Part shown: positions 7,606 to 63,385 of the stretch, one piece after another
How positions within the stretch are numbered: the first letter of the stretch is position 1
How the letters are laid out: each line of letters starts with the position of its first letter
Translations under genes and position numbers: made by a program
Notes under the pieces: model-generated
The model's database searches: none
The model's input: the letters and a program-made list of their open reading frames with translations, nothing else
Told to the model about the DNA's origin: nothing
Assembly (NCBI GenBank): GCA_004193545.1
Contig: RPGO01000024.1
Span: 1 to 64,000 of the forward strand
DNA length: 64,000 nt
Direction: 5' to 3'
Source: Candidatus Argoarchaeum ethanivorans
GTDB taxonomy: Archaea > Halobacteriota > Methanosarcinia > Methanosarcinales > EX4572-44

Positions 7606-7670
7606 TGCAGAAATAACGAACGTTATCGAAAGTTTTATAAATAGGAAAATAGTAAAGTGAGATAAATAAA

Positions 7671-9113: not shown

Positions 9114-9185
9114 TCCCCCCTCTTTTTTATTTTTTATTAAAAACAAATACCAAAATGTGATGGATAACATGGGCTCTATCCTGGT

Positions 9186-9392
9186 ATGAAGCCAACAAAC
9201 AATCTCAGCAAGCAGGTTATCAGAGAGCATGTACTCATGCGGAAGATCATAGGTGCTTTTAGGTCCAAGAAAGGCGCTGAATATTATCAGTACATCGCTT
9301 CAGTCTTCTCCACATGGCGATTACAAGGAAAAGATGTCTATGATGAACTCAAAGAATTGCTCACCAATGAACTTTGTTTGAGGTGCGCATAA
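9186..9392 (+). pseudogene. IS66-type transposase C-terminal remnant
   Basis: An open stretch encodes the very end of an IS66-like transposase: NNLSKQVIREHVLMRKI (normally NNLAERxIRPxVxxRK), then GAFRSKKGAEYYQYIASVFS and TWRLQGKDVYDELKELL. The DDE core upstream is absent, so this is a relic. It sits between the two beta-helix genes and may mark how they were duplicated. Confidence 0.75.
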
Positions 9393-9453
9393 AAATTTTC
9401 CGCATAAAAATTGAAACCCTTTTAAAAGGATATTTAGCTATACAAATATAAAA

Positions 9454-10662
9454 ATGGAGAAGAAAGAAATGAAAAGCAAAAGAAACATATCTTGGAAGAT
9501 ATCGGTGTTTGCACTTCTTTTCGCAGTACTGGCAGTTATAAGCATTGGATGCGCATCCGCTGATACGATTTACGTGCCTGAAGGCGGAAATCTGACGATC
9601 CAGCAGGCAGTTAATAACGCCTCAGAAGGTGACATCATCACCGTCCGCGACGCATACACCGGAACGAAAGAGAATATTGATGTGACTGTAGCTTATTTGA
9701 CGATTCAGTCAGAGAACGGCTCTGCAAGCTGCATCGTGAACGCATCGAATTCAAATGACCATGTCTTTGATGTGCAGCAAAATTACGTGAACATTACTGG
9801 GTTCACGGTGGAAAATGCGACTGGAACTGACAAGGCTGGAATATATCTTAACAGCACGCAGCACTGCAACATTTCTGCTAATAACGTAATGAACAGCTAC
9901 GACGGCATCCGCCTGTATTCTTCGAGCAACAACAATATCACGAACAACACCGCTAACTCGAACAATGTACTTGGCATCCGCCTGTGGGCTTCGAGCAACA
10001 ACACGCTCACGGACAACAACGCAAGCTCGAACAGCTACGGCATCCGCCTGTATCAGTCGAGCAGCAACACGCTCACGAACAACACTGCATCGAACAACGA
10101 CTACGGCATTTTCCTGCATTATTCGAGCAACAATATGCTCACGAGTAACACTGCATCGTACAACGACAACGGCATCTACCTGTATTCTTCGAGCAACAAT
10201 ATGCTCACGAACAACACCGCTAACTCGAACAACGACGATGGAATCCACCTACAATGGTTTTCAAGCAACAACAACATAGCGAACAACAATCTCATCAACA
10301 ACACCAACAACAACGCTTATGATACAAGCACCAACCAGTGGAACACCTCAACCGTTGGCAACTATTACTCAGACTACACAGGAAGCGACAACAACAGCGA
10401 TGGTATCGGCGACACTTCGTATCAGATTCCGGGTGGAAGCAACATTGATTACTTCCCACTCATGCATCCATGGGGAAAACCACCACTGAAAGGCGACCTT
10501 GACGGCGATTCCCAAATCACTTCAACAGATGCTGCAATCGTGCTTCAAATCGTAGTCGGCAGCAGCCCTTGCGATCCTGAAACCCTTGCTATTGCTGATA
10601 TGAACGGAGACGGTAGGGTTTCATCACTTGACGCTCTCATCATTCTACAGATGGCAGCATGA
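9454..10662 (+). CDS. Secreted beta-helix surface protein with C-terminal dockerin domain
   Basis: A 402-residue paralogue of the gene at 7671. It has the same signal peptide, the same beta-helix repeat type (roughly residues 45-300, YGIxLxxSSNNxLTxNxA), and a C-terminal end SDGIGDTSYQIPGGSNIDYFPL typical of NosD-like archaeal proteins. It then differs by ending in a type I dockerin module: two Ca-binding loops DLDGDSQITSTDA and DMNGDGRVSSLDA, each followed by a short helix. Dockerins bind cohesin modules, so this protein is probably docked non-covalently to another surface protein. No cohesin was seen in the window. The same module ends the giant protein at 41.4-45.4 kb. Confidence 0.87.
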   Translation: MEKKEMKSKRNISWKISVFALLFAVLAVISIGCASADTIYVPEGGNLTIQQAVNNASEGDIITVRDAYTGTKENIDVTVAYLTIQSENGSASCIVNASNSNDHVFDVQQNYVNITGFTVENATGTDKAGIYLNSTQHCNISANNVMNSYDGIRLYSSSNNNITNNTANSNNVLGIRLWASSNNTLTDNNASSNSYGIRLYQSSSNTLTNNTASNNDYGIFLHYSSNNMLTSNTASYNDNGIYLYSSSNNMLTNNTANSNNDDGIHLQWFSSNNNIANNNLINNTNNNAYDTSTNQWNTSTVGNYYSDYTGSDNNSDGIGDTSYQIPGGSNIDYFPLMHPWGKPPLKGDLDGDSQITSTDAAIVLQIVVGSSPCDPETLAIADMNGDGRVSSLDALIILQMAA

Positions 10663-16254: not shown

Positions 16255-16609
16255 TCTGTTATTTGTTAACTCTTCCAAGATTGTTATTGTCACGTTTGCG
16301 TGTTTCATGTAAGGCAAATCACAAATAATGATTTACCAGGGAACTGTATCATTTTTGTTGAATTTTTAAGACATAGATTTGTACTTGCCAGAATATGGTG
16401 TGGACAACATCCCAGGGAATTCAACCGCGAAACCAAGCAGAGGGTGCAGAGAGTGGGAAAGAAATGAGGTGCCTCTATAGTTCTCTGTGATCTCTGTGGT
16501 TGAGAGAAGTTATCTCGCAAACAGTTATTTAGCATGTTCACAAGCCTGGCGTGATGCTGTGGGTAAAAACACAACAACTTAAAATAATAGTTGATACTCT
16601 AATGATAAT
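16255..16609. repeat. Intergenic region with an inverted CAGAGA-type repeat
   Basis: No gene seen. At 16421-16506 a long imperfect inverted repeat has TCAACCGCGAAACC with GGTGCAGAGAG on the left and TTCTCTGTGATCTCTGTGG followed by TTGAG on the right. Related pairs lie at 27567-27666 and 41205-41329, so this is a second dispersed family. Confidence 0.5.
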
Positions 16610-37369: not shown

Positions 37370-38394
37370 TTAAAACAATGGTTTATCGGTTTGTGGCAGA
37401 ATCTGTTGTTCTCGCGCAAGCTGAAAGAGTGTTTCGACCGCTGCTTTACCATCTACTCCTATGTCGATGGTGTAATCATTAACGTACATGCCGATATGGG
37501 CTTGTATCACATCGTCTGCCATTTCCTGTGCATACTGTTTTACATATTGCATTGCTGCACCAGGGTTTTTATTTGCATACTTGATGCTCTCACAAAGAGC
37601 TGTGTCGATAGTATCTATGGCTTTTTTGCCAATACTTCGCTTTGCAGCAACACAACCGAGGGGAATTAACTTCCCAGTCTCATCTTCCCACCATTCTCCA
37701 AGATCCACCACTTTCTTTAGCCCATAGTGTGGATAGGTAAAGCGGCTTTCATGAATGAACTTCGCTTTGCAGCAACACAACCGAGGGGAATTAACTTCCC
37801 AGTCTCATCTTCCCACCATTCTCCAAGATCCACCACTTTCTTTAGCCCATAGTGTGGATAGGTAAAGCGGCTTTCATGAATGATTGCTCCCGCATCAACA
37901 ATTCCATCTGCTACCGCAGGCATTATTTTGTCAAATGGCATGGCGACTATGTTTTTTATTTTTGGCTCAAACAATTGCAACAACAGGTATGCAGTGGTAA
38001 ATTTTCCTGGCACAGCAATTGTTTTTCCAGTAAGCTCTGCCTGTTTGAAACTCTCTTGTGCAACAATAATTGGCCCACACCCTCTTCCAAGTGCACTTCC
38101 ACTTCGCAGAAGAGAGTATTCATCAAGCAGGAATCCAAGTGCATGGTAGGAAAGCTTGCTTACATCATAGCATCCTGAAAATGCCTGCCGGTTCAATGTC
38201 TCAATATCATGCAGGTGCGGGTTGAATCTGACGTTGCATATATCAACAGGTAAATTTGTTTCTGCTTGCGTTGTATGTGGGTGTTGGTTAAATCTGACGT
38301 TGCATGTATCGACAAGGTTGTGGGCTAAAGCATGAAATATAAAGGTATCATTAGGGCACGTTGAATAGCCAAGTGAATAATATTTGTTTACCAT
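37370..38394 (-). pseudogene. MqnD-like menaquinone biosynthesis gene broken by a 125-bp tandem duplication
   Basis: The N-terminal part (38394 down to about 37760) is an MqnA/MqnD periplasmic-binding-fold enzyme: YSLGYSTCPNDTFIFHALAH, GCYDVSKLSYHALGFLLDEY, GSALGRGCGPIIVAQESF, AVPGKFTTAYLLLQLF. The C-terminal part (to 37370) continues as IGKKAIDTIDTALCESIKYA, QEMADDVIQAHIGMYVNDYT. A perfect 125-bp tandem duplication lies between; because 125 is not a multiple of three, it shifts the frame. Removing one unit restores about 295 residues. The family makes 1,4-dihydroxy-6-naphthoate in the futalosine route. Near the N-terminus a short segment is also repeated (CNVRFNQHPH / CNVRFNPHLH). Function is lost unless the duplication is excised. 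Confidence 0.85.
37634..37883. repeat. Perfect 125-bp tandem duplication
   Basis: Units 37634-37758 and 37759-37883 are identical, beginning ACTTCGCTTTGCAGCAACAC and ending CTTTCATGAATGA. The absence of any mismatch points to a very recent event, or to an assembly error. Confidence 0.95.
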
Positions 38395-44400: not shown

Positions 44401-45449
44401 AGCACTCTGCGAACGGCACCCTGATCTTAAACCAGTCCATGCTACTCGCTGATCAGTATCCAAATGGAGAGATATGGGCGCTGCACGAGAACTACGCCCT
44501 CAACCCAAGAGAGATTGGTGCATATACGAGACAGGTCTGGTTCACACTCCTCAAAAACGGCACGCCTGTATATGATACCGTGATGAGAAGCAAACAAGTG
44601 TATACCTACTATAACGGTTCCATGAAAGTATTCACTGCTAAAATAGATTCTGTGTTTGCAGGAGCCACCACTGACATGGTGCAACTCAGAGAGATCAAGC
44701 AGTATTCAGAGCTTGATGAAAGAGAATTTGCAGATCTTCCAGCCTGGTATCCAGTACATCTAACATACGGATATGACATTGCAGCCAAACAGATCAATTG
44801 GTGCACCATCGCTTTACAACTCTCAAAAAACAACCGAATAATCGACGAGGGAATTTTCTCTGACACATTTATGCTGGAAGACAGTGGCAATCAAATAACA
44901 GTGAGTGGAAGCCTTGACTCACATAATGTTACACAATATTATGGTGATATAGAAGTACTCAATCTGACAAATGTTATATTAAAAGCTGGTTATTCCAAGA
45001 AAACTCTTACGATATCACCTCGATCACTGAAAATATCAATCACATCTCCTATTCATAGACTACAGAGAAACCCGATTGCCTTTGCAAGCAGTGTAATCGG
45101 CGGCACACCACCATACAGCTACAACTGGACCTCAACTATCAACAACCACATCGGAAGTACTGATACCTTCAGCAGAAATCTGTCAAATGGTTCTCACACA
45201 ATCACGGCAAGAGTAACCGACAGCAGAGGGGTTACAGTAACAGACAGTATCGTTATTTCCTCTTATAACAAGCTTAGAGGTGATGTAAATAGCGATACCC
45301 AAATCACTTCAGCAGATGCTGCAATCGTGCTTCAAATAGCAGTTGGCAGCAGTCTCTGTGATTCCAAAACCCTCGCTGTTGCTGATGTTAGTGGGGACGG
45401 CAAGGTAACATCCCTTGATGCACTGATGATTTTACAACAGATAAGATAA
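41418..45449 (+). CDS. Giant S-layer-type surface protein with PKD-like and dockerin domains
   Basis: About 1340 residues from GTG 41418, just before a signal peptide (SYLLLITLFFISVMCACPVA SADD); the frame is open upstream only because of an intergenic repeat. Two full S-layer family domains (WNSYNFAGFFYDFDND and WDPYSFAGLYYDLDQD landmarks) are followed by about five shorter repeats of the ENYTLxLxxIDARxxPRQAW type, each ending in VRLxDVYQYSE. Then come a PKD-like beta-sandwich (FASSVIGGTPPYSYNWTSTI) and a C-terminal type I dockerin with loops DVNSDTQITSADA and DVSGDGKVTSLDA. No membrane anchor is seen, so retention may depend on dockerin-cohesin binding or lattice contacts. aroK begins 5 bp downstream. 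Confidence 0.87.
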   Translation: MKHLTTERSYLLLITLFFISVMCACPVASADDKISLEFPLETGDSIYFEDGYYKVTLVGTEWQFGWALLNISCDGCLYEPREVYGRKNQTIHYPTTDNPIISITNTRDVSRDSARVTISFPERWSYKLVTGEEVDKVEVDKVEIRGDVYDNLTNHKPNVTGKGIASWNSYNFAGFFYDFDNDFWSETLTVENVSGRSIDENDLVYESKPVNIKYEHKAWGNYTAIGFLAAKYFAGYTDNGVVEKKDMVSKGYLSKVLIDEDEKHTITIGSTLSLKEGYALKAIDISVKDTLVRFVLLKDGEEVSNSDEIVDKGKNYVYEKKIGNVSDIPIIIVYVETVFHGRETDAAFIHGVFQISENPIKLETGNEYRIMEVMNLSNGITMKNTETISLYAGDTIDVMGEVRFKVADSDELRFYPFIDCSGYCEIRGMLASGTEAQTWDPYSFAGLYYDLDQDIKTEKLEISGISGRTIEKGNLTYQTHSTHKYFNVYTYKGLLVNGEANYSVIGWKGEQYAAINEKANKIARIVVEQDNTPSDKKTLTIGETWDIGDGWSLTAQGIDARATPRQAWLVLSKDGVKLEDEVVADGDVVTYQEDLSGESDVPLFVTYVDSVFAGATTDMVQLRYTWAISTDVTIIKSGDKFGKLEVVNATQKKLILDNNYNFSLDRGSNKHIIGKINFKIADSDELRFYPFIAINSFPPPPLAAWPGIAKWNLYENYTLALIAIDAKSSPRQAWLQLSKDDYVVEDIVVRQGNIYRYNGTQCEIFSAKIEAVFKGTTTDLVRLTDVYQYSETNGSLLINNNTYSFIHGSPDRQDWEIYENHNFSLVDIDARVTPRQAWLQLSKNNVTVMDSVVVSDDCFSYRPNTTIFRACVGDIFWGINNATSSKLVTLEDVYQYSEINGSVLINNATYLFMPEEAAPLETSELEENYTLSLMEIDARATPREAWLQISNGTHRSNAIVYDGERYTDGALEIVIGSVFYGRKSTNLVLLSSVRQHSANGTLILNQSMLLADQYPNGEIWALHENYALNPREIGAYTRQVWFTLLKNGTPVYDTVMRSKQVYTYYNGSMKVFTAKIDSVFAGATTDMVQLREIKQYSELDEREFADLPAWYPVHLTYGYDIAAKQINWCTIALQLSKNNRIIDEGIFSDTFMLEDSGNQITVSGSLDSHNVTQYYGDIEVLNLTNVILKAGYSKKTLTISPRSLKISITSPIHRLQRNPIAFASSVIGGTPPYSYNWTSTINNHIGSTDTFSRNLSNGSHTITARVTDSRGVTVTDSIVISSYNKLRGDVNSDTQITSADAAIVLQIAVGSSLCDSKTLAVADVSGDGKVTSLDALMILQQIR

Positions 45450-52310: not shown

Positions 52311-53434
52311 TCGGTTCCCTCTATTATTAATTTTTTATGATATGAATTTAAACTTTTGCAGCCCTTTTCAGTTACAACAACGATATCTTCGATCCGCACT
52401 CCTCCTGTATCCTGGTAATACAACCCAGGTTCAATAGTGATAACGTTTCCTACTTTTAGAGGTTCACTCCCGGCTCCAATCGCTGGCAGTTCGTGAACAT
52501 CCAATCCAACACCATGACCAGTGGAGTGAATGAACCCCTCTCTTTTACCGACATCATAGCCACCTGATTCAAAGACCTCACACACAAGATTATGAATCTC
52601 ACTCGCAGCAATTCCAGGCTTCACCATCTCAATTGCGGCTTCTTGGGCAGCAAGTACCATCTCATGCATATTGATAAGCTCCTGCCGCGGCTTCCCATAC
52701 ACGAAGGTTCTGGTCATGTCACCATGATACCTGTTGAGTTTGCTCTGTGGAAATACATCGATTACAATCGGTTCGCCATATTTTATAGAGCCTGAACCTG
52801 TGTTGTGCGGATCAGCACTCGATGCACCTGCTGCAACGATGGTTGTTTCTGTAGCATAACCATCGTAGAGAAGGCTTACTTCTATGATACTTCTAAGTTT
52901 TTCACAGGTGAGAACTTCCCTGTTAATATACAGGGTGCCCTCTCTTACTGTTGATTGTTTTAGTGTGTTCTCTGCTTTTTTTATAGCTTTCTCAGCTGCA
53001 CCCTGGGCACTTCGTATAAATGAGATTTCGGTGCTGCTCTTCTGTGCTCTTGATCGTTGAACAGGGCTACTCACAGGCGTAACCTCAATATTTTTTGATC
53101 GCAACCCGTCTGCAAGGTACAGCCCGAAGCTTCGCGGCACTGCTATCTTTTGAACCCCAAGGTCACTTACAAAATCTGCAACAACATCAGGATATTCCTT
53201 TCCATGCCTTGAAAGAGGGGCTATTTCGTCAACGTCTGCCTGTTTTTCCGCTCTTCCTGCTTCCATGTTGGATATCAGCAGGACATCCTTTTCCCTGGTA
53301 TGCACATATAAAAAAGGATCATAAGCGAGAAACTTTGTCGTATAATACAGATCGGAGTCTGCTGCACTATCAGCATATATCATATACGCATCCATGCCAT
53401 ATTTTTTTATGAAGTCAATTAATACTTGTTTCAC
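52307..53434 (-). CDS. pepQ: Xaa-Pro dipeptidase / aminopeptidase P family protein
   Basis: A 375-residue M24 peptidase with the N-terminal creatinase-like domain (MDAYMIYADSAADSDLYYTT) and the pita-bread catalytic domain: PIVIDVFPQSKLNRYHGDMT (Asp ligands), HSTGHGVGLDVHELPAIGAG (His), NVITIEPGLYYQDTGGVRIE (Glu). It cleaves Xaa-Pro bonds. First gene of a minus-strand run pepQ, map, membrane protein, glycosyltransferase. Confidence 0.9.
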   Translation of the reverse strand: MKQVLIDFIKKYGMDAYMIYADSAADSDLYYTTKFLAYDPFLYVHTREKDVLLISNMEAGRAEKQADVDEIAPLSRHGKEYPDVVADFVSDLGVQKIAVPRSFGLYLADGLRSKNIEVTPVSSPVQRSRAQKSSTEISFIRSAQGAAEKAIKKAENTLKQSTVREGTLYINREVLTCEKLRSIIEVSLLYDGYATETTIVAAGASSADPHNTGSGSIKYGEPIVIDVFPQSKLNRYHGDMTRTFVYGKPRQELINMHEMVLAAQEAAIEMVKPGIAASEIHNLVCEVFESGGYDVGKREGFIHSTGHGVGLDVHELPAIGAGSEPLKVGNVITIEPGLYYQDTGGVRIEDIVVVTEKGCKSLNSYHKKLIIEGTE

Positions 53435-53531
53435 GTTATTTCCTTTTATTAAAATTATATCTCTTAAAGCTTGTTAATCTATGATTGTATACGGGAAGAA
53501 TTAAGTATCAATTTGACAATTTTAAGTGTAA

Positions 53532-54449
53532 ATGATGTACAAGAAAATAGTGGTGGCTATAGTTTTGATGGCTGCATTCGTCTTTGCACTTGGGTGTACT
53601 GAAAGAACGTCAGTTTCTATTGATGGCTCAAGTACGGTGTTTCCAATATCAGAGGCAGTGGCAGAGGAGTTCCAACTGGCAAATCCAGGTATTATCGTTA
53701 CTGTTGGCGTAAGCGGCACAGGTGGTGGATTTAAAAAATTCTGTGCTGGTGAAATTGACATTGCTGATGCTTCAAGACCGATTAAGCAGAGTGAGATTGA
53801 AGCATGCGACAAGGAGGGTATTGAATATATTGAGTTTGTCACAGCTTATGATGGCTTATCTGTAGTAGTAAACCCAGGGGATTATTTTGTTGATTGTCTA
53901 GCTATTGAAGAACTCAGGCAAATATGGGAGCCAGAAAGCACTGTTTCAAAGTGGAGTGATGTGCGACCGGAATGGCCTGATGAAAAGATATTTCTTGCTG
54001 GAGCTGACACTGATTCCGGGAGCTTTGATTACTTTACTGAAACAGTTACCGGAGAAAGCGGTGCAAGCCGTTCCGATTACACTGCAAGTGCTGACGATAA
54101 CGTGCTGGTGCAGGCTGTAAGCGGGCAGAAGGGAGCACTTGCATATTTTGGATATGCATATTATACTGAGAACAAAAATAAGCTTAAAGTGGTGCCAATC
54201 GATAACGGTGGAGGGTGCATAACTCCTTCTATAGAAAATATTACAAGTGGCGAGTATCCGTTATCCCGACCTCTTTTTATCTATGTAAACGCAGAGTCAT
54301 TGAAACGTCCAGAAGTTTCTGCTTTTGTTGAATATTATCTTGAAAGTAGTAAACCGCTTGTTGAAGATGTAGGTTACGTGGCTGTTAGCAGCACTGAGAA
54401 AGATGAGATGATTAAAAGGCTTGCAGGGTACTATCCAGAAAACCAGTGA
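53532..54449 (+). CDS. pstS: Phosphate ABC transporter substrate-binding lipoprotein
   Basis: A 305-residue PstS-like protein. The signal sequence ends in a lipobox (FALGC), and the PBP domain contains [75 protein letters not shown], and [18 protein letters not shown]. It binds phosphate outside the membrane. No pstC, pstA, pstB or phoU is adjacent, so it is an orphan or works with a transporter elsewhere. Either ATG at 53532 or 53535 may start it. Confidence 0.9.
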
Positions 54450-54614
54450 TTTTGATCATTATCTTCAGCTTTTGCCTTATTTCTCCAAGATATCGTCTTT
54501 TATACCACATTTACACGACAATCTTCATCAGGAACTAAACCCTTTTAGGAAGTACTGCATGTGCAAACACTTAAATGTATCTAAAATCTCATACGTCCAC
54601 TGGTGAGGTAATAC

Positions 54615-55094
54615 ATGTTCATCAAAATTGATGGATGGATGGCAAAACTTCGATTCTCTGCATGCCATCTCATACCAAATCATCATAAATGTGGAAGGCT
54701 GCACGGTCACACCTATGCAGTAACTGTACATATAGAAGGTGAACAAAAAAATGAATTCATCATCGACTTCGAGGAATTAAAACAGATGGTAACAAACATC
54801 TGCGACACACTTGATCACAGAGTTATCCTTGCAAGAGATGATAATCGCATCAGAATACACGAAGATAACAAGAGTGTTGAAATGGTGGTTTTGCAATCTA
54901 ACAAAAGATATGTGTTTCCAGTAGAAGATGTAGTCCTTCTGCCAATTCCATCGGTCAGTGCGGAAGAGCTCTGCCAGTACATTAATTCACTGATTGCATC
55001 ACAACTTGAAGATAGGGATAACATCAAAAGCATCATGGTGCAGCTGGATGAAGGCATTGGGCAGGGAGCAGGGTGCACACTCGAACTGAAATAA
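54615..55094 (+). CDS. queD: 6-pyruvoyl-tetrahydropterin synthase / QueD family protein
   Basis: A 159-residue PTPS/QueD homologue: KLRFSACHLI (first Zn His), HHKCGRLHGHTYAVTVHIEG with the catalytic Cys and the HGH Zn pair, FIIDFEELKQMV, DTLDHRVIL, then VSAEELCQYINS and an EGIGQGAGC end. It probably makes 6-carboxytetrahydropterin for the archaeosine/queuosine pathway; the family also has other pterin activities. The 3' part of the gene is duplicated 4.6 kb downstream, at the far side of the STAND island. Confidence 0.9.
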   Translation: MFIKIDGWMAKLRFSACHLIPNHHKCGRLHGHTYAVTVHIEGEQKNEFIIDFEELKQMVTNICDTLDHRVILARDDNRIRIHEDNKSVEMVVLQSNKRYVFPVEDVVLLPIPSVSAEELCQYINSLIASQLEDRDNIKSIMVQLDEGIGQGAGCTLELK

Positions 55095-55177
55095 CACGCT
55101 ACAAAAAGTACAGTGTCACTGGCAGAAGTATACACCCCATCAAATGACTCTTTCGAACATTAAGATAATGCGGAAGC
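54871..55177. repeat. 307-bp direct duplication, left copy
   Basis: It covers the last 75 codons of queD and the very end of the downstream permease gene. It matches 59485-59791 with about 15 mismatches (about 95%) and no gaps. To its right the sequence changes abruptly to the GC-richer island. Confidence 0.97.
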
Positions 55178-55224
55178 TCAGCCAAACCCTGGGGCCGCTA
55201 TGCCATGCGACAGGATAACCCTTA

Positions 55225-55905
55225 TCAGACACAACTCCGCCGTAAATAGTCTGCAAGCTGGCTATGCGACTTACAATAAGCCCCAGACAAGTCTGCCTCT
55301 GGCGACGCCATACCCAAGTAGCGGTGGCAGACAGCAAAGCGCAGCTGGTCGTGGAAGAAGTCGATCAGCCCCATGCCTCTTGTCTTATCAACGGGACGCA
55401 GATACGGCTCAAGTGAGCGGTAGAACTGCGTCCAGTGGATGCGCGATAACTCCTCCTCCCAAGCAAACCAAGTATCTCCGACTCAAGAAGATCCAACCTG
55501 GGTACTGCAAACAATCGCAGGATTGATTCGGTGCGGTCACTGGTATGATCCTGCTCAAGAATACGCGGGTGTCAGATCGAGATGGTTCAAATGCACCTTC
55601 ATTTATCTCCTGCGGGATATCTTCAGGGACGGGTATCCAGCCGTATCGATCCCCAATCAATGAGACAAAGAAGTTGCACAGCCTAATCTCATCCAGACAG
55701 ACCGATAGAACCCCGCGCTGTTCGATCTCCTTCTCTGTGACCCCCCAGCGCAGGTCAACCCGACGAACTCAACCCCATGTTGTATGCAGCGGCTGCGCAG
55801 CTCCGGGAATGCGAACCGGTTGATGTAGTCCCGCTCCGCATGCATATCGCTGAATGTCGAGGAGATGAAGACGCGGGCGGTTGTTATTCTTGTGGATTTT
55901 GCTGG
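55225..55905 (-). pseudogene. DUF4062/STAND NTPase pseudogene with internal deletion
   Basis: Read on the minus strand right after the TIR-STAND gene. The N-terminal part TTARVFISSTFSDMHAERDY, FAFPELRSRCIQHGVEFVG is a DUF4062 domain. After a shift it continues VDLRWGVTEKEIEQRGVLSV, CLDEIRLCNFFVSLIGDRYG. Then the nucleotide-binding core is missing, and a third segment, WTQFYRSLEPYLRPVDKTRG, LIDFFHDQLRFAVCHRYL, HSQLADYLRRSC, is the helical region that normally follows a NACHT domain. At least two frameshifts and a large deletion; inactive. Confidence 0.78.
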
Positions 55906-55918
55906 GTGATGCAACGTC

Positions 55919-58900
55919 TTATCCTGCCCCCCGCAAACGCAGGAAATGCACCGCGCCTGATGCATCGCCTGCGACGATGGTTCTGCCGTCTGGCGATATG
56001 GCGCAGGCGCGAAGAGGGGCGTCCCCGCTGAACGAAGCGATGATTTCTCCGGTTTTTATGTCCCAGTCCCAGACCTTGAGTGTTCGGTCGTCTGATGCTG
56101 ATATCGCATACTCCCCATCTGATGTAACAGCAATCGCATCGACCCAGCTGGTGTGACCTTCCAATGTTCGCAGTTCTTCCCCGCTCTCAATATTCCAGAC
56201 CTTAAATGTCTCATCGCGCGAGGCTGATATGGCACGGCTTCCATCTGGTGTAACAGCAACCGCCCTGACCGATCTGGTGTGACCTTTGAATCTCTGTGTT
56301 TCTTCTCCACGCTCAATGTCCCAGACCTTGAGGGTGCGGTCGTCTGATGCTGATATCGCATACTTTCCATCTGGTGTAACAGCAACCGCCCTGACCGATC
56401 TGGTGTGACCTTTGAATCTCTGTGTTTCTTCTCCACGCTCAATGTCCCAGACCTTGAGGGTGCGGTCGTCTGATGCTGATATCGCATACTTTCCATCTGG
56501 TGTAACAGCAACAGCATTTATCTCCCCAGTATGGCCGCTAAGTGTTAGCAGTTTTTCTCCACTCTCGATATCCCAGACCCTGAGGGTGTTGTCCCATGCT
56601 CCTGAGATTGCGTATCTTCCATCCGGTGTAACAGCAACCGCCCTGACCGATCTGGTGTGACCTTCGAGTCTCTGTGTTTCTTCTCCACTCTCGATATCCC
56701 AGACCCTGAGGGTCTTGTCACTTGATCCTGAGATTGCGTGTCTTCCATCTGGCGTAACAGCAACCGCCTTGACCCCGCCGATATGACCTTCGAGTGTCTG
56801 TATTTCTTCTCCACTCTCGATATCCCAGACCCTGAGGGTCTTGTCACTTGATCCTGAGATTGCGTGTCTTCCATCTGGCGTAACAGCAACCGCCTTGACC
56901 CCGCCGATATGACCTTCGAGTGTCTGTATTTCTTCTCCACTCTCGATATCCCAGACCCTGAGGGTCTTGTCACTTGATCCTGAGATTGCGTGTCTTCCAT
57001 CTGGCGTAACAGCAACCGCCTTGACCCCGCCGATATGACCTTCCAGCACACGTATCAATGGTCCTCCGGGCGGTATCAGACTGGCTGTACGCGGGCAGAG
57101 CCACATACCACCACTCCATCCACGAGCCTGCTCAAGCATCGATTGAATCCCGGATTCCTTAAAGGTTTGCAAGCGACCCAAAAGCTGTCCGGCAAGCTGT
57201 GTCTTATCCCGGGCTAACACATGCGCAGACAGCCGGATTGCGCCCTGCACGAGGTGCAGATCAGAGTCATCAGGCAGATGATCATAATCGCTGACGAGGG
57301 AGTTGACGTCGGTTGCAACAAGTTTCGCCTGCAGCCAGTTAAAATCAAGTAAAAGCTCGTGTAGATCCTCTTTTCTTCCAGCCTCGACCAAGTGGTACGC
57401 CAGATGCTCAAAGAAGTAATCGTCATTTGGACCGCTCTTCCAGCCATCTACACACCTCTCTTGATACGCATCCAGCAGCCGATCGTGAAGACTGCTCAGA
57501 TCGCCCACAACCGCACGCAGGTAATCATGCTGCAAGTCGTGCAGCGAGACAAGACGATGAGGCGCTTCGCCTTCGAGCCGCAGCAGTGCTTTTCGTTCCA
57601 GTGTGGTGAGCAGTCTGCGTGCATCACGCTCCTTCAATCCATCTGTATGAAGCCAGAATGTCAGCACAGCCGCCTCTGGTACTGCCTCGTCTACAGGGAA
57701 GACCGCCAGTTCATGGTAATGTTGTGCTGCGGCAGTATTCTCTTTAGCCAGCGCATCGACGCTCACTTTCAGTGCCTTCAAGACATCCGGATAAGGGTAA
57801 TTCGGAATCTTCCCCTCGATGAACGTGAGATCAGCCTCCTCCAGAGCCTCAAGCATGTCAGACCATGGTATGCCGTCGCGTGCCATCGCACCACAGAGGG
57901 AAAGTGCAAGCGGCAGGTTTCCGCACTCACTGGCAACTAACACTGCTTCAGGAGGCAACGATCCCACATCCTGATCACACCAGTTCGCAAGAAGCTGAAG
58001 AGCGGCAGCGTCGGTCAGCACATCCATGCTATGCTCCTCTGCACCCAGTGCGGTTACCAGACTGCCATCACGCGTGGTTACGAGCAGCCGACAGCGCGGA
58101 CCAAGAGCATTGACGAAGGGGGTGGCATGAGCGACATTCCAGACATCATCCAGCACGATCAGATAGACCTTGTCTGAAAGAACCCCAGGCAGACGCGCCC
58201 TTGCGCTATCGAGATCAACGTAATTTGCAGGATCATCATCAAAAGCCGTGCCCACAAGTTTAAGGTTCGAAAGCAGGTCTGGTTTCAGTCCGATCGTAAG
58301 CCAGATAACACCGTCAGTAAATGCACGACGCGTCTCGGTAGCCCGTGCAAACGCAGCCGCAATAACCGATTTTCCGACACCGCCCATTCCCTGGAGTGCG
58401 GTTGTCTGTCTTGCCGATGTGATCGCTGTTGGTCGCTGTACGTCTGCAAGCACTGTTTCCCCAAGGCGGGTAATCTCGTCGCTGCGTGGCAGGAAATGCG
58501 GCGGCAGGGATGGAACCGCAGTGAGCAAGGGACCGGGTGGCGGAACTGGCTCGGCGAGGATGCGGAGCAGCTCGTCAAGGGCTTCGTTGTAAGGGCGCTC
58601 TCTCTGAAAGTCCGGGCAGTGGAACTTCGAGAGTTCATCCGGGATCAGGCTGTAGTCGCCCTCACGCAAAATCGGAACCACGCCCCTGCTGAAGAGGAGA
58701 GCATGCTCCCATTCTGCCCGGACATAATCTGATCTGACCGCATTCGGACCGATGACGGCAATCAGGCGGTCCGACCCCTCGACCGCGTCACGGAGTTCCT
58801 GCAAGAAGGTCCGACCGCGGCTCTGCATGGTCTGTTGATCCCACCAGACATCGAAACCATGCTCGATTAGATCGTCGTGGAGCTGCTTGACGAATGACTC

Positions 58901-58939
58901 ATCATCGGCACGTGCGTATGAGATGAAAATGTGTCCCAT
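55919..58939 (-). CDS. TIR-NB-ARC-WD40 STAND (NLR-like) protein
   Basis: A 1006-residue protein. TIR domain at 1-130 (GHIFISYARADDESFVKQL, HGFDVWWDQQ, SDYVRAEWEHAL, with a Glu at the usual NADase position). NB-ARC at about 150-480: P-loop GMGGVGKS (184-191), Walker B LIVLDDVW, LLVTTRDGS (sensor), GNLPLALSLCGAMA (GLPL-like). A helical linker (480-620) precedes nine WD40 blades, the first three identical in sequence at the DNA level (126-bp period), and a deviant last blade. Such proteins sense a ligand with the repeats, oligomerise through NB-ARC and activate the TIR to destroy NAD, as in antiphage systems. Base composition is clearly more GC-rich than in neighbours, suggesting transfer. Confidence 0.92.
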   Translation of the reverse strand: MGHIFISYARADDESFVKQLHDDLIEHGFDVWWDQQTMQSRGRTFLQELRDAVEGSDRLIAVIGPNAVRSDYVRAEWEHALLFSRGVVPILREGDYSLIPDELSKFHCPDFQRERPYNEALDELLRILAEPVPPPGPLLTAVPSLPPHFLPRSDEITRLGETVLADVQRPTAITSARQTTALQGMGGVGKSVIAAAFARATETRRAFTDGVIWLTIGLKPDLLSNLKLVGTAFDDDPANYVDLDSARARLPGVLSDKVYLIVLDDVWNVAHATPFVNALGPRCRLLVTTRDGSLVTALGAEEHSMDVLTDAAALQLLANWCDQDVGSLPPEAVLVASECGNLPLALSLCGAMARDGIPWSDMLEALEEADLTFIEGKIPNYPYPDVLKALKVSVDALAKENTAAAQHYHELAVFPVDEAVPEAAVLTFWLHTDGLKERDARRLLTTLERKALLRLEGEAPHRLVSLHDLQHDYLRAVVGDLSSLHDRLLDAYQERCVDGWKSGPNDDYFFEHLAYHLVEAGRKEDLHELLLDFNWLQAKLVATDVNSLVSDYDHLPDDSDLHLVQGAIRLSAHVLARDKTQLAGQLLGRLQTFKESGIQSMLEQARGWSGGMWLCPRTASLIPPGGPLIRVLEGHIGGVKAVAVTPDGRHAISGSSDKTLRVWDIESGEEIQTLEGHIGGVKAVAVTPDGRHAISGSSDKTLRVWDIESGEEIQTLEGHIGGVKAVAVTPDGRHAISGSSDKTLRVWDIESGEETQRLEGHTRSVRAVAVTPDGRYAISGAWDNTLRVWDIESGEKLLTLSGHTGEINAVAVTPDGKYAISASDDRTLKVWDIERGEETQRFKGHTRSVRAVAVTPDGKYAISASDDRTLKVWDIERGEETQRFKGHTRSVRAVAVTPDGSRAISASRDETFKVWNIESGEELRTLEGHTSWVDAIAVTSDGEYAISASDDRTLKVWDWDIKTGEIIASFSGDAPLRACAISPDGRTIVAGDASGAVHFLRLRGAG

Positions 58940-59258
58940 ATTGGATTTCCTTCAACTGGTTCGTTTGAGGAGATTGTGATGGTTGTTATTTATGGCTTTT
59001 CTCTGTTTTGTCTGTTAAGCGAGGATGTGTACCAATTTTTCTGTAATTTCACCTTATCCTGTTATCCAAATACAATCACTCAACACCACAACAAGGTAAA
59101 TTATTATTTATGAGTTCCATAAGCAGTGTAAACGCCTGCATAGTATACTAATTTCTATGTTTCCATGCAACTGCCATCCACAAGTTTCAACCACTACACT
59201 CCCGAATAAACTGTATAGGCACCCACAGTTGTTTGGATGAAACATAAACAGTTCTCTT

Positions 59259-59475
59259 TTATTTACCACCAATCTTTTCATACTTCAAAATTGAAAGGTT
59301 ACCGGCAGAATCGCCGACAAGCATATAATTTGTATTGGGAATTATCCCGATGTAAGTCACGCGACCTTCCGCTGGAAAAAAACCCGACGACCCGATCAGA
59401 CTCAACCAACATCGCGAAAATATCCTGACTATGGCGAAGGTCGCCAATATAACCCAGCATGCTGGGTTTTATTAT
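59259..59475 (-). pseudogene. Beta-propeller (WD40) C-terminal remnant
   Basis: Read with one frame change: PSMLGYIGDLRHSQDIFAML, VESDRVVGFF, then AEGRVTYIGIIPNTNYMLVG, DSAGNLSILKYEKIGGK and stop. The end resembles the last blade of the neighbouring STAND protein (VAGDASGAVHFLRL). It is what remains of another propeller-ended gene, cut off at the right-hand host duplication. Confidence 0.55.
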
Positions 59476-59484
59476 ACTAAGTGG

Positions 59485-59791
59485 AGAGTGTTGAAATGGT
59501 GGTTTTGCAATCTGACAAAAGATGTGTGTTTCCAGTAGAAGATGCAATCCTTCTGCCAATTCCATCAGTTAGTGCGGAAGAGCTCTGCCAGTACATTAAT
59601 TCAATGATTGCAGCACAACTTGAAGATAGGGATAACATCAAAAGCATCATGGTGCAACTGGATGAAGGCATTGGGCAGGGAGCAGGATGCACACTCGATC
59701 TAAAATAACACGCTACAAAAAGTACAGCGTTACTGGCAGAAGTATACAGCCCATCAAATGACTCTTTCGAACATTAAGATAATGCGGAAGC
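59485..59791. repeat. 307-bp direct duplication, right copy
   Basis: Holds a queD 3' fragment (ESVEMVVLQSDKRC and onwards to GCTLDLK, no start of its own in context) and the true 3' end of the permease gene. Together with the left copy it brackets 4307 bp of island DNA (55178-59484). Confidence 0.97.
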
Positions 59792-60996
59792 ATTCCAATT
59801 GGAATAGCAATTGCAAAAATAACAAGTCCAAACACACCAGTAAATATTACAACAATTAATAAAAGTCCGGACAGAATTACGGTGGACAATTTTGTATAGT
59901 TTATTTTTTTAAAGAGTTTAACGGCTTGTTTTCCAATAAAAATGGTTGTAGGATAAGATAATAGTGCTGTAACAACTATGACCACAAATAGTAGTACCAT
60001 CAGGTCAAGGTTCAATTGAATAATCTGGTTTATGGCAGAGACTGCACCACTACGGCTTTTGCCGATCACATAGAGTGCTATCAGGCTAAATAGTGCATTT
60101 GACGTATTAGCACCACTCAAAGAGACAATGAATTCATTGTGAGAGTGTTCATTGTTTCTGGGAAGTGCAATGCGTGCTATGATCGTTGCAACTGCCGAGG
60201 ATACCCCGGGAAACCATGCTACAAGCGAACCCGCGGTGCTCCCGAAAAAGATTCCTCTGAGGAGGTTTGCAGCAGGAAGATTGTATTTTGTATCCTGCTG
60301 TTCCGGGAGAGTAGTTTTCGAGAGCATGCTTATGAGGAGTACGGAAGCCCCAAAAAGACCGCTTAATAACGGCAGAAAAACAGTCTCCCCAACAGTTGGA
60401 ATTATTGAGTTCATCAATGCTTCTTTTTCAAAAGCAAAGAGTCCGAGAAGGCCTGACAATAAAAATACGATCACTGCATAAGATTTATATTTCAGGTGTA
60501 CGAGGCTCCCCCCTCCTTGTATCTGCTCGCCTTTTTCAGTTAAAACCATCATAAGAATCAATGTGATGAGCAGCCACGCCGTGTATTCCTGCAATACAGT
60601 ATAATAATTTTTAAATATCCAGATCATGGGCAGTGCGAGCAATAACGAGGTAAGGATTGCTCCTGCACTTCCAATAGCAGACAAACGTATGGCTTCGATT
60701 CCACGCCCTTCCATTGTCAATGCATGACCCGGGAGAACCGCGAGAGCAGTGTCCGACTCCGGAACTCCAATGAGCACTGCTGGTATGATATCGATAAAAG
60801 TGTGGGTTATAGAGTTAGAGAGGATTACTATTACAATATAAAGCGGTAATACGTTGTATTGAGATAATAAAGGCGTTATGGCAAGAAGGATTACTGCGAT
60901 GTTGTTAACATGGAAACCAGGAACCATCCCGGTTATTATGCCAAGAAAGTATCCAAAGAAGATTGATAATATCACCAACGGAATAGATACTTCCAT
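59713..60996 (-). CDS. TctA-like multi-pass membrane permease
   Basis: A 427-residue integral membrane protein with about ten helices. The N-terminal GYFLGIITGMVPGFHVNNIA and the internal RGIFFGSTAGSLVAWFPGVS are the two repeated glycine-rich signatures of the TctA (tripartite tricarboxylate transporter) superfamily; GVPESDTALAVLPGHALTME lies between. Archaea have TctA-like proteins without the TctB/TctC partners, and the cargo is unknown. It is cotranscribed with, and 31 bp downstream of, the methanogenesis marker 12 gene. Its last 26 codons lie in the duplicated 307-bp block, which shows the original neighbour was queD. Confidence 0.82.
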   Translation of the reverse strand: MEVSIPLVILSIFFGYFLGIITGMVPGFHVNNIAVILLAITPLLSQYNVLPLYIVIVILSNSITHTFIDIIPAVLIGVPESDTALAVLPGHALTMEGRGIEAIRLSAIGSAGAILTSLLLALPMIWIFKNYYTVLQEYTAWLLITLILMMVLTEKGEQIQGGGSLVHLKYKSYAVIVFLLSGLLGLFAFEKEALMNSIIPTVGETVFLPLLSGLFGASVLLISMLSKTTLPEQQDTKYNLPAANLLRGIFFGSTAGSLVAWFPGVSSAVATIIARIALPRNNEHSHNEFIVSLSGANTSNALFSLIALYVIGKSRSGAVSAINQIIQLNLDLMVLLFVVIVVTALLSYPTTIFIGKQAVKLFKKINYTKLSTVILSGLLLIVVIFTGVFGLVIFAIAIPIGMLPHYLNVRKSHLMGCILLPVTLYFL

Positions 60997-61027
60997 TTTT
61001 GCACCCTCCCCCTTAGCCCAACCGAAC

Positions 61028-61999
61028 TCAACGTTTCTCTACCTTAATGCCAGTAATGTTTGTTGCTCCATTGTAGATATCCTCTGCGATTTCTGCCAAT
61101 CCCACTGCTGCACTCCTTTTCCCTACTGAGATGGTCTGCGCGTGAAGGTGTTTTTCAATCTGCTTTTTCACATATTCTATTTCGCTGACTGAACCTGAAA
61201 GATATACCTGACAGTGGTCAGGTGATATGTTATAGTCGCGCATAAAAACCTTCATGGCGGCAATCTCCATGGCACAAAGAAGGGAGAGACTGTCAAAAGA
61301 TAGTATTGCGTCTGCTTTACGTTGATTGTATGCCTGTGTAAGCTCGTAGAGATTCTTATATGGTGTGTGCTTGATCACGCCCGCTCGTGTGAATGCCTCG
61401 TTTGCTGTGCACTCTCTGGCATCTATTTTTCGAATGGCTTCAACATCGAGCGGTCCATGCCGGATGCCTGGTGCAAAGATACAGGCATCAATTGCCCCGA
61501 TTATCCTTCCGTTGGCTACTGCAATGGTTACTGTATTGGAGCTAATATCGCACACAATAAAATCGTTTGTTCCTTTTTTATAAATATGGTATACGATTCC
61601 AATTTTTTCAGGGCTTGTCCCGTGAGAATAGACATCGAGCCGCATGTCACAGCCACTGCCCCTGTGGACTCCGGGTATTACCACTGCACGCAGCCCGGAC
61701 GACCGTATCAGGTCAAAAACACGGGTGCCGCCTCCTACATGCAGTCCTGCACCCCCTCTATTTATAAGAGCGCGATTGGTGGTTTTTTCGATCGGTGTAA
61801 TGCTGTTAATGCCATCCCCCATGGAATATGTCAAAGCGAACATTTTAATTTCATTTCGCTCCACATTGAGTTTTTCTTCTATGTGCGCAAACAGTGTTTC
61901 GCAATCAAGAGCTGCTGCTGCTTCGCGAGATAATTCAAAATAATCATATTTTGTTGCAAATCGGATGGCAGTTGTGCCGTGCTCAACTCCTATGAACAT
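61028..61999 (-). CDS. Methanogenesis marker protein 12 (UPF0285 family)
   Basis: A 323-residue ASKHA-fold protein: FIGVEHGTTAIRFATKYDYF (phosphate-1-like loop), INSITPIEKTTNRALINRGG, AGLHVGGGTRVFDLIRSSGL, DFIVCDISSNTVTIAVANGR, GAIDACIFAPGIRHGPLDVE, QVYLSGSVSEIEYV, GKRSAAVGLAEIAEDIYNGA. This family is a phylogenetic marker of methanogens and related alkane-oxidising archaea. The function is not established; the fold suggests an ATP-dependent enzyme. It heads a two-gene unit with the TctA-like permease. Confidence 0.9.
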   Translation of the reverse strand: MFIGVEHGTTAIRFATKYDYFELSREAAAALDCETLFAHIEEKLNVERNEIKMFALTYSMGDGINSITPIEKTTNRALINRGGAGLHVGGGTRVFDLIRSSGLRAVVIPGVHRGSGCDMRLDVYSHGTSPEKIGIVYHIYKKGTNDFIVCDISSNTVTIAVANGRIIGAIDACIFAPGIRHGPLDVEAIRKIDARECTANEAFTRAGVIKHTPYKNLYELTQAYNQRKADAILSFDSLSLLCAMEIAAMKVFMRDYNISPDHCQVYLSGSVSEIEYVKKQIEKHLHAQTISVGKRSAAVGLAEIAEDIYNGATNITGIKVEKR

Positions 62000-62155
62000 A
62001 TATGTTTCAAGTGGTGTTCCTCAATATAGACATTACTATTGATGCCATCAGGCGTGCCTGGTACTAAAAATTACACGAGGCACACTTTGCAGATTTATCA
62101 AAACCTGTAAAAACAGCACAGTTCTGTATGAAAAATAGCTGCTGCTTTCACTATA

Positions 62156-62200
62156 GTTGACTGGCAGTCATGGGAAAGTTTATACTTTCTTTACACATTT
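62156..62200 (+). promoter_or_regulatory. Promoter block shared with the cis-prenyltransferase homologue
   Basis: GTTGACTGGCAGT, four variable bases, GGAAAGTTTATACTTTCTT: almost the same as 3754-3798. The TATA box is AAAGTTTATA. Here the start codon (62264) is about 80 bp further on, leaving a leader of about 60 nt; at 3811 it is short. Confidence 0.65.
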
Positions 62201-62263
62201 AAGTGAGAAATTACGAGGCACCGACAGGAGAAGAGTTCACAAAGTGTACTCTGGTGGTAAAAT

Positions 62264-63385
62264 ATGGTAAACTATCATTCAAACAAAGAAATAATAACAA
62301 AGGAAATTGGAGATCGTAGAAAGATTATCTATGATTACATTTTTGAAAACATTCAAAAATTCAGACCAGATGATATTTATGAATCTGTAATGTTGTATCC
62401 GGGAAGTTCTGGAAAATCATTGAGACCGTCTGTACTTCTACTTTGTTGTGGTGCTGTTGGCGGGGACGAGAAAACTGCTCTGCCAGCAGCCGCAGCAGTG
62501 GAGCTGTTTCATACATGGACTCTTGTTCATGATGATTGGATTGATCGGGATTCTTTCAGGCGCGGCGTACCAACTGTACATTCCCTGATGAAGGAAAAAG
62601 CTCTGGAAACATATAAGTTTGATCAGGATGAGGCAGAACATTACGGTGGAACTATTTCCATGTTAACTGGTGATGTTCAGCAGGGCTGGTCTATTGGCGG
62701 ATTTATGACAAATCTCAGCCTTGAACATTCGGTTGATCCAATGATTACGCTAAATCTAATTAAAAAATTAGCTCTGGAAATCAACATTCAAATCGTAGAG
62801 GGAGAGACCTTAGACGTTCTTTATTCAAAAAAACCAATAAACGAAATATCTGAAGAAAATATCATCATGATGCTGTATCTAAAAACAGGTGTACTTTACC
62901 AATTTTGCGGGGAGGCTGGTGCTGTTATAGGTTTAAAGCGATATGAACCTGAGAACGAGTACGTGCAATCCCTATCAGAGTTTACTAAACACTGTGGTAT
63001 AGCGTTTCAGATCCAGGATGATGTTATTGGTGTTGTTGGAAATGAAACGGTCGTCGGGAAACCCCGCTGGTCAGATATAAAAGAGGGGAAAAGAACAATT
63101 ATCTTGTGGAAAGCGTACCAGGAAGCTAATAGTAAACAAATAAAATTTTTGGAATCAATTCTTGGAAATCAGCATGCTACTACAGAAGAACTGCAATCAG
63201 TGGAAGATTTGTTTATAGATCTTGGTGCAGTTGACTATACAAAAGAGCTTGCTAAGGCGTATATAGTAGGGGACCGCAACCGGTCTATCAAAGGTGCATT
63301 GAACTATCTTGATGTTTTGCCAGATAGTAATTATAAAGATATTTTAAAAGCATGGGCATATTATATGATTGAACGTGATTTTTAG
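62264..63385 (+). CDS. Polyprenyl (trans-type isoprenyl) diphosphate synthase
   Basis: A 373-residue trans-prenyltransferase: GKSLRPSVLLLCCGAVGG, ELFHTWTLVHDDWIDRDSFR RG with the first Asp-rich DDxxD motif, TGDVQQGWSIGG, GETLDVLYSKK, LYLKTGVLYQFCGEAG, and the second motif FQIQDDVIGVVG (DDxxG instead of DDxxD). It extends isoprenoid chains; chain length and product cannot be read, though the residues just before the first motif (FHTWTLV) include bulky ones, suggesting a short to medium chain. GGTGG seven bases upstream is the RBS. The promoter matches that of the cis-type homologue at 3.8 kb. Confidence 0.88.
   Translation: MVNYHSNKEIITKEIGDRRKIIYDYIFENIQKFRPDDIYESVMLYPGSSGKSLRPSVLLLCCGAVGGDEKTALPAAAAVELFHTWTLVHDDWIDRDSFRRGVPTVHSLMKEKALETYKFDQDEAEHYGGTISMLTGDVQQGWSIGGFMTNLSLEHSVDPMITLNLIKKLALEINIQIVEGETLDVLYSKKPINEISEENIIMMLYLKTGVLYQFCGEAGAVIGLKRYEPENEYVQSLSEFTKHCGIAFQIQDDVIGVVGNETVVGKPRWSDIKEGKRTIILWKAYQEANSKQIKFLESILGNQHATTEELQSVEDLFIDLGAVDYTKELAKAYIVGDRNRSIKGALNYLDVLPDSNYKDILKAWAYYMIERDF

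Follow-up and report, generated by a model that had tools for sequence, protein, structure and literature searches.

The first 64,000 nucleotides of contig RPGO01000024.1 of the archaeon Candidatus Argoarchaeum ethanivorans (assembly GCA_004193545.1; this stretch is referred to below as the window) contain an island of 4307 bases with genes of the STAND type, which lies between queD and a convergent TctA-family gene and is flanked on both sides by a copy of the same 307 bases of host DNA. We suggest that foreign DNA entered the queD-TctA junction by duplicative, partly illegitimate integration, for example of a recircularised fragment through one crossover, a scenario that we regard as moderately probable. 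The evidence comes from the insertion with its partial duplication, from the evidently foreign cargo, from an island end that lies inside genes, and from an independent micro-homologous joint in a related genome, all of which can be observed directly in the DNA.

The two host copies align without gaps over all 307 bases with 15 differences (95.1% identity), and both hold the 3' ends of queD and TctA; in this, the sequence-only reading of the same DNA, made before any database search, was correct. When the right copy was used to search its own genome (G000 among our genome handles; 46 contigs, 82% complete), it found the left copy at E = 1.5e-138 and no third match there, while the longest identical run between the two copies is 43 bases. 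The left copy completes queD and the right copy completes TctA; both host genes are whole. The island between the copies is single-copy in this genome.

In the congener G003, queD and TctA stand side by side, undivided apart from a hairpin-like insertion of ~110 bases, so that the undivided junction that the sequence-only reading would expect in a close relative does exist. The hairpin-like insertion has a shorter form (~60 bases) in G001 and is missing from both G000 copies. Both G000 flanks are collinear with G003 except for extra G003 stretches of ~0.1 and 1.1 kb. Because the junction is undivided in G003, the island is a derived feature within the genus, inserted after the lineage had parted from G003. 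In G002 there was no QueD or TctA match, and G004 has them well separated, at 727,518 and 12,506. Units resembling AACTTCGCTTTGCAG lie between queD and TctA in both G003 and G001, where they alter the QueD end; units of this type also occur within a tandem 125-base repeat at 37619-37868 of the window.

Judged by sequence similarity, the cargo is foreign and came from outside the genus. The TIR-NB-ARC part is matched in 23 of 185 genomes of the order (G000 included), with no match in the three other genomes of the genus that were compared or in the two of the sister genus. In four genomes of other families, pieces of the cargo are 75-85% identical while QueD is only 55-59% identical, and it is this difference that argues for a foreign source: 85% (149 residues) vs 58% for QueD in G033; 80, 75 and 81% (118, 118 and 67 residues) vs 58% in G042; 76% (114 residues) vs 55% in G018; and 79% (62 residues) vs 59% in G025, the cargo pieces in these assemblies being short or broken. 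Longer, less similar relatives (57-61%) occur in G094, G153, G051 and G029. Contig C2 of G042 holds pieces of both island genes at 78-92% DNA identity, arranged and oriented as in the island: TIR and the start of NB-ARC lead, and the WD40 end with DUF4062 behind it comes after other TIR and TPR genes. Over parts of the DUF4062-type gene alone, the identity to G042 is 87-92%. DNA of the G042 genus has a guanine-plus-cytosine (GC) content of ~0.50-0.52 (five loci). In the island, GC content is 0.54-0.548 at 55178-58939 and 0.393 at 58940-59484, compared with 0.423 for the whole window; the description of the insert as GC-richer is thus right for its left 3.76 kb and wrong for the remainder. The proposed capture from outside is borne out by a cargo far more alike than QueD in the four other-family genomes.

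At the left joint, read on the minus strand, the remnant of the DUF4062-type gene ('...RPQGLAELP') continues in frame into the TctA end ('HYLNVRK...'). Intact DUF4062-type homologues from loci L065 and L090 were used to align the remnant. Its frame aligns with the L065 DUF4062-WD40 protein through 'ELPYHL' with a score of 61, reached by 0 of 200 shuffles (maximum 50). By this alignment, the left joint lies inside two unrelated genes, a broken STAND gene and TctA. At the joint, GAGCTTCCG, up to 7 bases may have been common to the STAND gene and TctA (ATGCTTCCG), provided that Leu and Pro were encoded in the STAND gene by the codons that TctA has; this upper estimate derives from the protein motif ELPYHL of the homologue.

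A second joint is found in G001, where contig C7 (L063 1-650) begins with an IS1182-type transposase frame running into queD at TAGAAGATG, with an intact TctA immediately to the right. With GAAACAAATAGAAGATGCAGGC in a complete 505-residue transposase paralogue elsewhere in G001 and CCAGTAGAAGATGTAGTCC in the queD of G000, the two have at least 9 bases in common. Homology in G001 starts at the equivalent of 54922, which is 51 bases from the start of the G000 duplication at 54871. G000 and G001 each have a joint in this 3' stretch of queD that looks illegitimate, and the two joints are not the same. Homology-facilitated illegitimate recombination is recognised by 3-10 bp of homology at one joint and by a deletion of host DNA; here up to 7 bases may have been common at the G000 left joint and 9 are common at the separate G001 joint, and the host DNA was duplicated instead of deleted.

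The duplication, together with a left joint inside two unrelated genes, points to an event of illegitimate or duplicative kind at one or both ends. The sequence-only reading had proposed capture by homologous recombination; the insertion and the outside source of the cargo stand, whereas the duplication and the in-gene left joint do not follow from that proposal. Two-sided homologous replacement is rejected as the source of the duplication because a clean double crossover cannot duplicate. The integration that we favour could have started from a linear fragment with the STAND genes, the AT-rich piece and a 3' fragment of the queD-TctA junction; end joining of the STAND gene to TctA would have circularised it, and the circle would then have entered by a single crossover in the 307 bases of host homology. 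The outcome would be 307 duplicated host bases, with queD and TctA both left intact. For E. coli, PMC3240628 reports that 56 of 60 Lac- integrants gave a polymerase chain reaction product diagnostic of duplication and that 14 sequenced integrants had 109-950 bp of the target duplicated, which the authors read as one crossover with a recircularised molecule.

Several observations weigh against duplicative integration as we propose it. No circle, donor or intermediate was seen, and an identical product would come from template switching or from the end joining of sister chromosomes. The alignment with the L090 homologue (score 89, 0 of 200 shuffles) ends before the left joint, and L065 itself uses other codons at the motif, so that the common bases rest on DNA that has been lost. 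The right joint abuts the segment at 59003-59484, for which no source was identified, and is hence untypable. Contig C7 of G001 starts 27 bases before the transposase frame, so that no intact queD is seen there. Lastly, neither site patterns nor synonymous counts identify the native copy.

These counts also bear on the main rival, template switching or end joining, in which a jump from TctA into STAND DNA and then to an earlier point in queD would copy 307 bases twice, with later drift that is faster where constraint is absent. We consider this doubtful, even if the order of the joints suits a backward jump. The copies differ by 0.103 at synonymous positions (5 of 48.5 sites), with a dN/dS-type ratio (nonsynonymous to synonymous) of 0.40. 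Within the genus, TctA orthologues differ by 0.153-0.203 and full-length queD of G000 and G003 by 0.103; for the 3' part of queD, the values are 0.129 between left copy and G003, 0.218 between right copy and G003, and ~0.17 between either copy and G001. The divergence of the copies (4.9%; synonymous 0.10) therefore does not exceed that of orthologues in the genus (0.10-0.20), and both copies are without the hairpin insertion of G001 and G003; for these two reasons, drift after duplication in this lineage fits equally well, and the divergent donor flank of the sequence-only reading is possible and not required. QueD residue Tyr99 is conserved at all 30 aligned loci, that of G000 among them, and is Cys in the right copy, which places this orphan fragment outside QueD constraint and suits relaxed constraint after template switching. 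Against this rival, three differing sites are shared crosswise with G001 and G003 alleles, for which drift would need repeated mutation: at 54920-55177, two sites pair left copy with G003 and right copy with G001 and one shows the reverse, beside two that join both copies, three peculiar to the left copy and four to the right. Template switching would also need a foreign template in the cell, and by itself imports no foreign DNA.

Clean homologous replacement at both flanks, as in the sequence-only reading and in the hotspot model of PMC5635113, would have a donor block of queD, island and TctA recombine within the conserved genes, and we find it quite unlikely. Bacterial hotspots without mobile genes that recombine at flanking core genes are described in PMC5635113, and the fact that G003, G001 and G000 differ at this junction would agree with such a process. 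However, replacement only relocates an existing island and explains neither the duplication nor the joint inside TctA, and divergence to G003 and G001 along the flanks shows no clear step at 250-base resolution.

Coliphages that integrate at icd restore the 3' end of their target gene. The island could likewise be the remnant of an integrase-type element, with the left host gene complete, a displaced 3' fragment in the right copy and similar 3'-end orphans elsewhere; we think this very improbable, as there is no integrase in the four island frames scanned, the copies take in the ends of two genes that converge, a STAND gene contains one end of the island, and gene-end pairs in the two genomes sampled below follow no clear 3' rule (3' in 5 of 7, 5' in 2 of 7). 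Equally improbable is an assembly artefact, be it a strain chimera or a mis-joined repeat: the assembly is fragmented (46 contigs, 82% complete), and identical WD40 units invite mis-assembly within the gene, but the copies differ at 15 sites with no identity beyond 43 bases, the flanks are collinear with G003 apart from its extra stretches, and pieces of these genes occur in matching order in G042.

The features of the locus are listed in Table 1.

Table 1. Features of the queD-TctA locus and its island (window positions).
Feature	Position	Strand	Extent or evidence
QueD / 6-pyruvoyl-tetrahydropterin-synthase-family gene, intact, 3' end duplicated	54615..55094	+	PF01242 E 7e-22; TIGR03367 75 bits, below cut-off 89
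Left copy (queD 3' end, intergenic bases, final 79 bases of TctA)	54871..55177	+	
Left joint	55171..55177		up to 7 bases (GCTTCCG, - strand) possibly common to STAND 'AELP' and TctA 'MLPHYL'
DUF4062-type STAND gene remnant: frameshifted, internally deleted, cut at left joint	55178..55965	-	DUF4062 22.6 bits, below cut-off 24.7
Open TIR-NB-ARC-APAF1_C-WD40 gene, 1006 residues	55919..58939	-	best solved relative APAF-1, E 3e-31
WD40 array, 126-bp units	56067..57074	-	
APAF1_C helical domain, residues 481-554	57278..57499	-	PF17908 E 3e-14
NB-ARC domain; GMGGVGKS (residue 184), LIVLDDV (residue 260)	57755..58408	-	
TIR_2 domain, residues 4-125; RAEWEHAL stretch from residue 74	58565..58930	-	PF13676 E 5e-24
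AT-rich segment, between TIR gene's upstream region and right copy	59003..59484		482 bases
Right copy (orphan queD 3' fragment, then TctA 3' end)	59485..59791	+	
TctA-family gene, intact, convergent to queD	59713..60996	-	PF01970 E 9e-69

The larger island gene has all the parts of a TIR-NB-ARC-WD40 receptor, namely TIR, an NB-ARC with Walker motifs, APAF1_C and WD40, and is the sole NB-ARC match in its genome; PADLOC and NCBIfam gave partial matches with no full-length model that fits. The receptor probably works; by analogy with its families, the WD40 part would sense an invader, NB-ARC would oligomerise and TIR would degrade NAD+, halting the infected cell. Two WD40 units, at 56697-56822 and 56823-56948, are identical over all 126 bases, and the unit number may be mis-assembled; in fungal NLR-like proteins, repeats with strong internal conservation are known (PMC4986451). 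The DUF4062 partner gene either arrived as a wreck or decayed into one. The statement that the island holds only STAND-type genes and remnants is accurate for these two genes, and fails for 59003-59484, which is not recognisably STAND-derived. The absence of a recombinase, tRNA or insertion sequence, also part of the sequence-only reading, agrees with our scans: none of the four island frames searched with Pfam has a match to a transposase or recombinase family (smaller frames lying outside the scan), there is no tRNA in the island, and Rfam has no match at 53000-62500.

Nothing longer than 31 bases of the AT-rich segment was matched in the other 184 of the 185 genomes of the order. Its sole short match elsewhere, of 24-31 bases with unrelated flanks, occurs in G029, G042 (twice), G181 and G007 and corresponds to a 29-base motif, GGTAAATTATTATTTGTGAGTTGCCTAAG, at 59095-59123, with an imperfect copy near 16308. 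This motif was considered as the end of a mobile element and rejected: it has no inverted partner at up to 9 mismatches in the G029, G042, G181 and G007 loci, and the loci have no longer interior in common, shared sequence being limited to 29-41 bases. The exact 22-base core was not found in viral contigs. With regard to a virus origin, there was no relative in 50,697 phage records and none was confirmed in IMG/VR. A plasmid origin was discarded, 40 of 72,556 plasmid records matching, all below 60% identity, and a single scan of genome contigs gave 2 distant loci.

A survey of duplication-flanked inserts was prompted by G153, in which a STAND gene has a gene-end repeat next to it. Besides 9 control stretches, the survey covered 20 kb around TIR-type hits in 11 genomes, G153 among them, out of the 22 others with such hits. 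A fixed rule admitted direct, non-tandem repeats of at least 80 bases and at least 80% identity whose starts lie 600-8000 bases from each other, with 400 bases or more in between; it yielded pairs in 5 of the 11 TIR stretches and in none of the 9 controls; a looser rule gave pairs of any kind in 8 of 11 and 3 of 9, respectively. In L131, the 3' end of a helicase gene is repeated around a DUF4143 ATPase gene, and in L132, the prompting case, the 3' end of a CYTH gene is repeated around a phosphoribosyltransferase gene; in both, one copy belongs to the gene itself and the other is an orphan. Of the remaining three pairs, one (L124) consists of entire paralogous genes and two (L125, L126) lie clear of any gene of 100 residues.

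Over 669,659 bases of G000, the fixed rule gave 5 pairs, that of the island included. One of them, at G000:C4 154620/157475 (L147 10620-13557; C4:154620-157557), is an 83-bp repeat of the 3' end of a radical-SAM gene around genes for a PPR/TPR protein and a 187-residue protein, neither with a PADLOC match; the corresponding junction of G001 is occupied by a largely different insert of 3.4 kb, which has 181 bases in common with the G000 insert's right end. Another, at G000:C14 66185/68001 (L154 3299-10121; C14:63299-70121), is a 180-bp repeat (85.6%) of the 3' end of a type IIG restriction-modification gene around an Exo_endo_phos-like gene, with a SIR2-like gene next to it. The others are a ten-copy element and an intragenic three-copy pair.

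In 800,000 bases of G004, 8 pairs were found, 4 being two-copy gene-end pairs and 4 multi-copy or intragenic. The sister-genus parallel to the island is at G004:C1 282525/289225 (L184 2525-9385; C1:282525-289385), where 161 bp of the fpoO 3' end are repeated (94.4%) around genes for TIR, a STAND-type ATPase (PDC-S60, E 2e-73), HicB, HicA, a nucleotidyltransferase, HEPN and a nuclease. The pair at 367670/369366 consists of the 5' end of a semialdehyde dehydrogenase gene and adjoins an N6-methylase gene. A strict rule of 3' ends with defence cargo was tried and failed in a further 400 kb of G004, which gave 412014/414355 (3' end of a 437-residue gene, the other copy in a 160-residue frame, with secreted-protein genes between) and 790549/792771 (5' ends of two frames), with no recognised defence genes. 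Over both genomes, clear defence cargo lies inside 2 of 7 gene-end pairs, one of which is the island described here, and defence genes adjoin 2 more. Duplicative insertion thus recurs in the family, while a special tie to defence genes or to 3' ends is unproven; selection for intact host genes could shape where such insertions are seen.

Apart from these pairs, L131 8966-9460 (G179:C163) has a TIR domain followed by out-of-frame WD40-like letters (recognised by eye) near two DUF4143 ATPase genes, and is probably a decayed STAND locus. L090 7012-17350 (G051:C69) has, judging from their sequences, three consecutive STAND-type genes (one of TIR type, one of DUF4062 type with TPR-like repeats, and a TIR-NB-ARC-WD40 gene of 1313 residues) with no gene-end duplication under the fixed rule. 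The window itself has arrays of 66/69-base repeats and dispersed repeats of 130-300 bases at 7668-10649 and 45273-45436.

The sequence-only reading had also raised the possibility of a docking site for defence genes. In the three genomes that can be compared, the queD-TctA junction contains the island (G000), a transposase piece (G001) or no such insert (G003). Other foreign DNA at queD in G001 supports the idea, while there are three genomes only and the G001 piece is a transposase, not a defence gene; we therefore retain the junction as a docking site as a modest hypothesis. One relative is thus empty at this locus, G000 is filled, and another relative has a different foreign joint in nearly the same place. 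We also entertain, as an unlikely extension, that gene-end duplications are working, host-run, integrase-free attachment sites in these alkane-oxidising archaea. If so, defence and accessory genes would move as circles carrying a few hundred bases of a host gene end, entering and leaving by host recombination where another strain has the corresponding gene end; junctions such as queD-TctA and fpoO would be docking sites, and imperfect repeats would record exchange between lineages. The host is a probable ethane oxidiser of the GoM-Arc1 cluster, close to Argoarchaeum or Ethanoperedens, because its McrA-type gene is closest by far to ethyl-coenzyme M reductase among solved relatives (7b1s, 942 bits; next 482).

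To our knowledge, the entry of defence genes into archaeal genomes without integrases or transposons has mostly been inferred from bacteria, and among titles and abstract openings of the open-access literature, which included possibly relevant papers on Sulfolobus islandicus (PMC3718332) and Halorubrum islands (PMC11078007), we recognised no archaeal case of an island of this form. Together with similar duplication-flanked inserts elsewhere in the family, such as the one behind fpoO, the queD-TctA island provides a testable model for how an uncultured archaeal group may capture genes without an integrase.

With respect to its cargo, the larger gene resembles APAF-1-like STAND receptors with TIR in its order of TIR, NB-ARC, APAF1_C and WD40, and APAF-1 is its best solved relative; unlike in APAF-1, TIR replaces CARD, and the island gene is known from sequence alone. 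DUF4062 is presented as the TIR-like NADase domain of an antiphage system, Swarozyc, in a preprint (PMC13174449). The second island gene starts as a protein of this type; unlike Swarozyc, it is frameshifted, cut and below the family cut-off. As for its mode of entry, merodiploid formation by transformation in Streptococcus was set aside as a model, since it concerns duplications of ~100-900 kb (PMC3784515). The single-crossover integrants of E. coli come closer in that a few hundred target bases are duplicated (109-950 bp there, 307 here), although those involved a laboratory plasmid with a cloned target piece (PMC3240628) and the present case is a natural archaeal event whose copies are 5% divergent. 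The nearest in form is the microcin H47 island of E. coli, for which integrase-free mobility between extensive imperfect repeats is shown in PMC3191183. Like that island (PMC3191183 and PMC5426353), the one described here is small and without a recombinase of its own (in four frames), has extensive imperfect direct repeats (307 bp, 15 differences) and has an empty site in a relative (G003). Unlike H47, for which excision and integration were shown and whose cargo is a microcin, it is known from sequence, and its repeats are the ends of two host genes. An integrase-free island between imperfect repeats is thus of a kind already known, and apparently new in this archaeal group.

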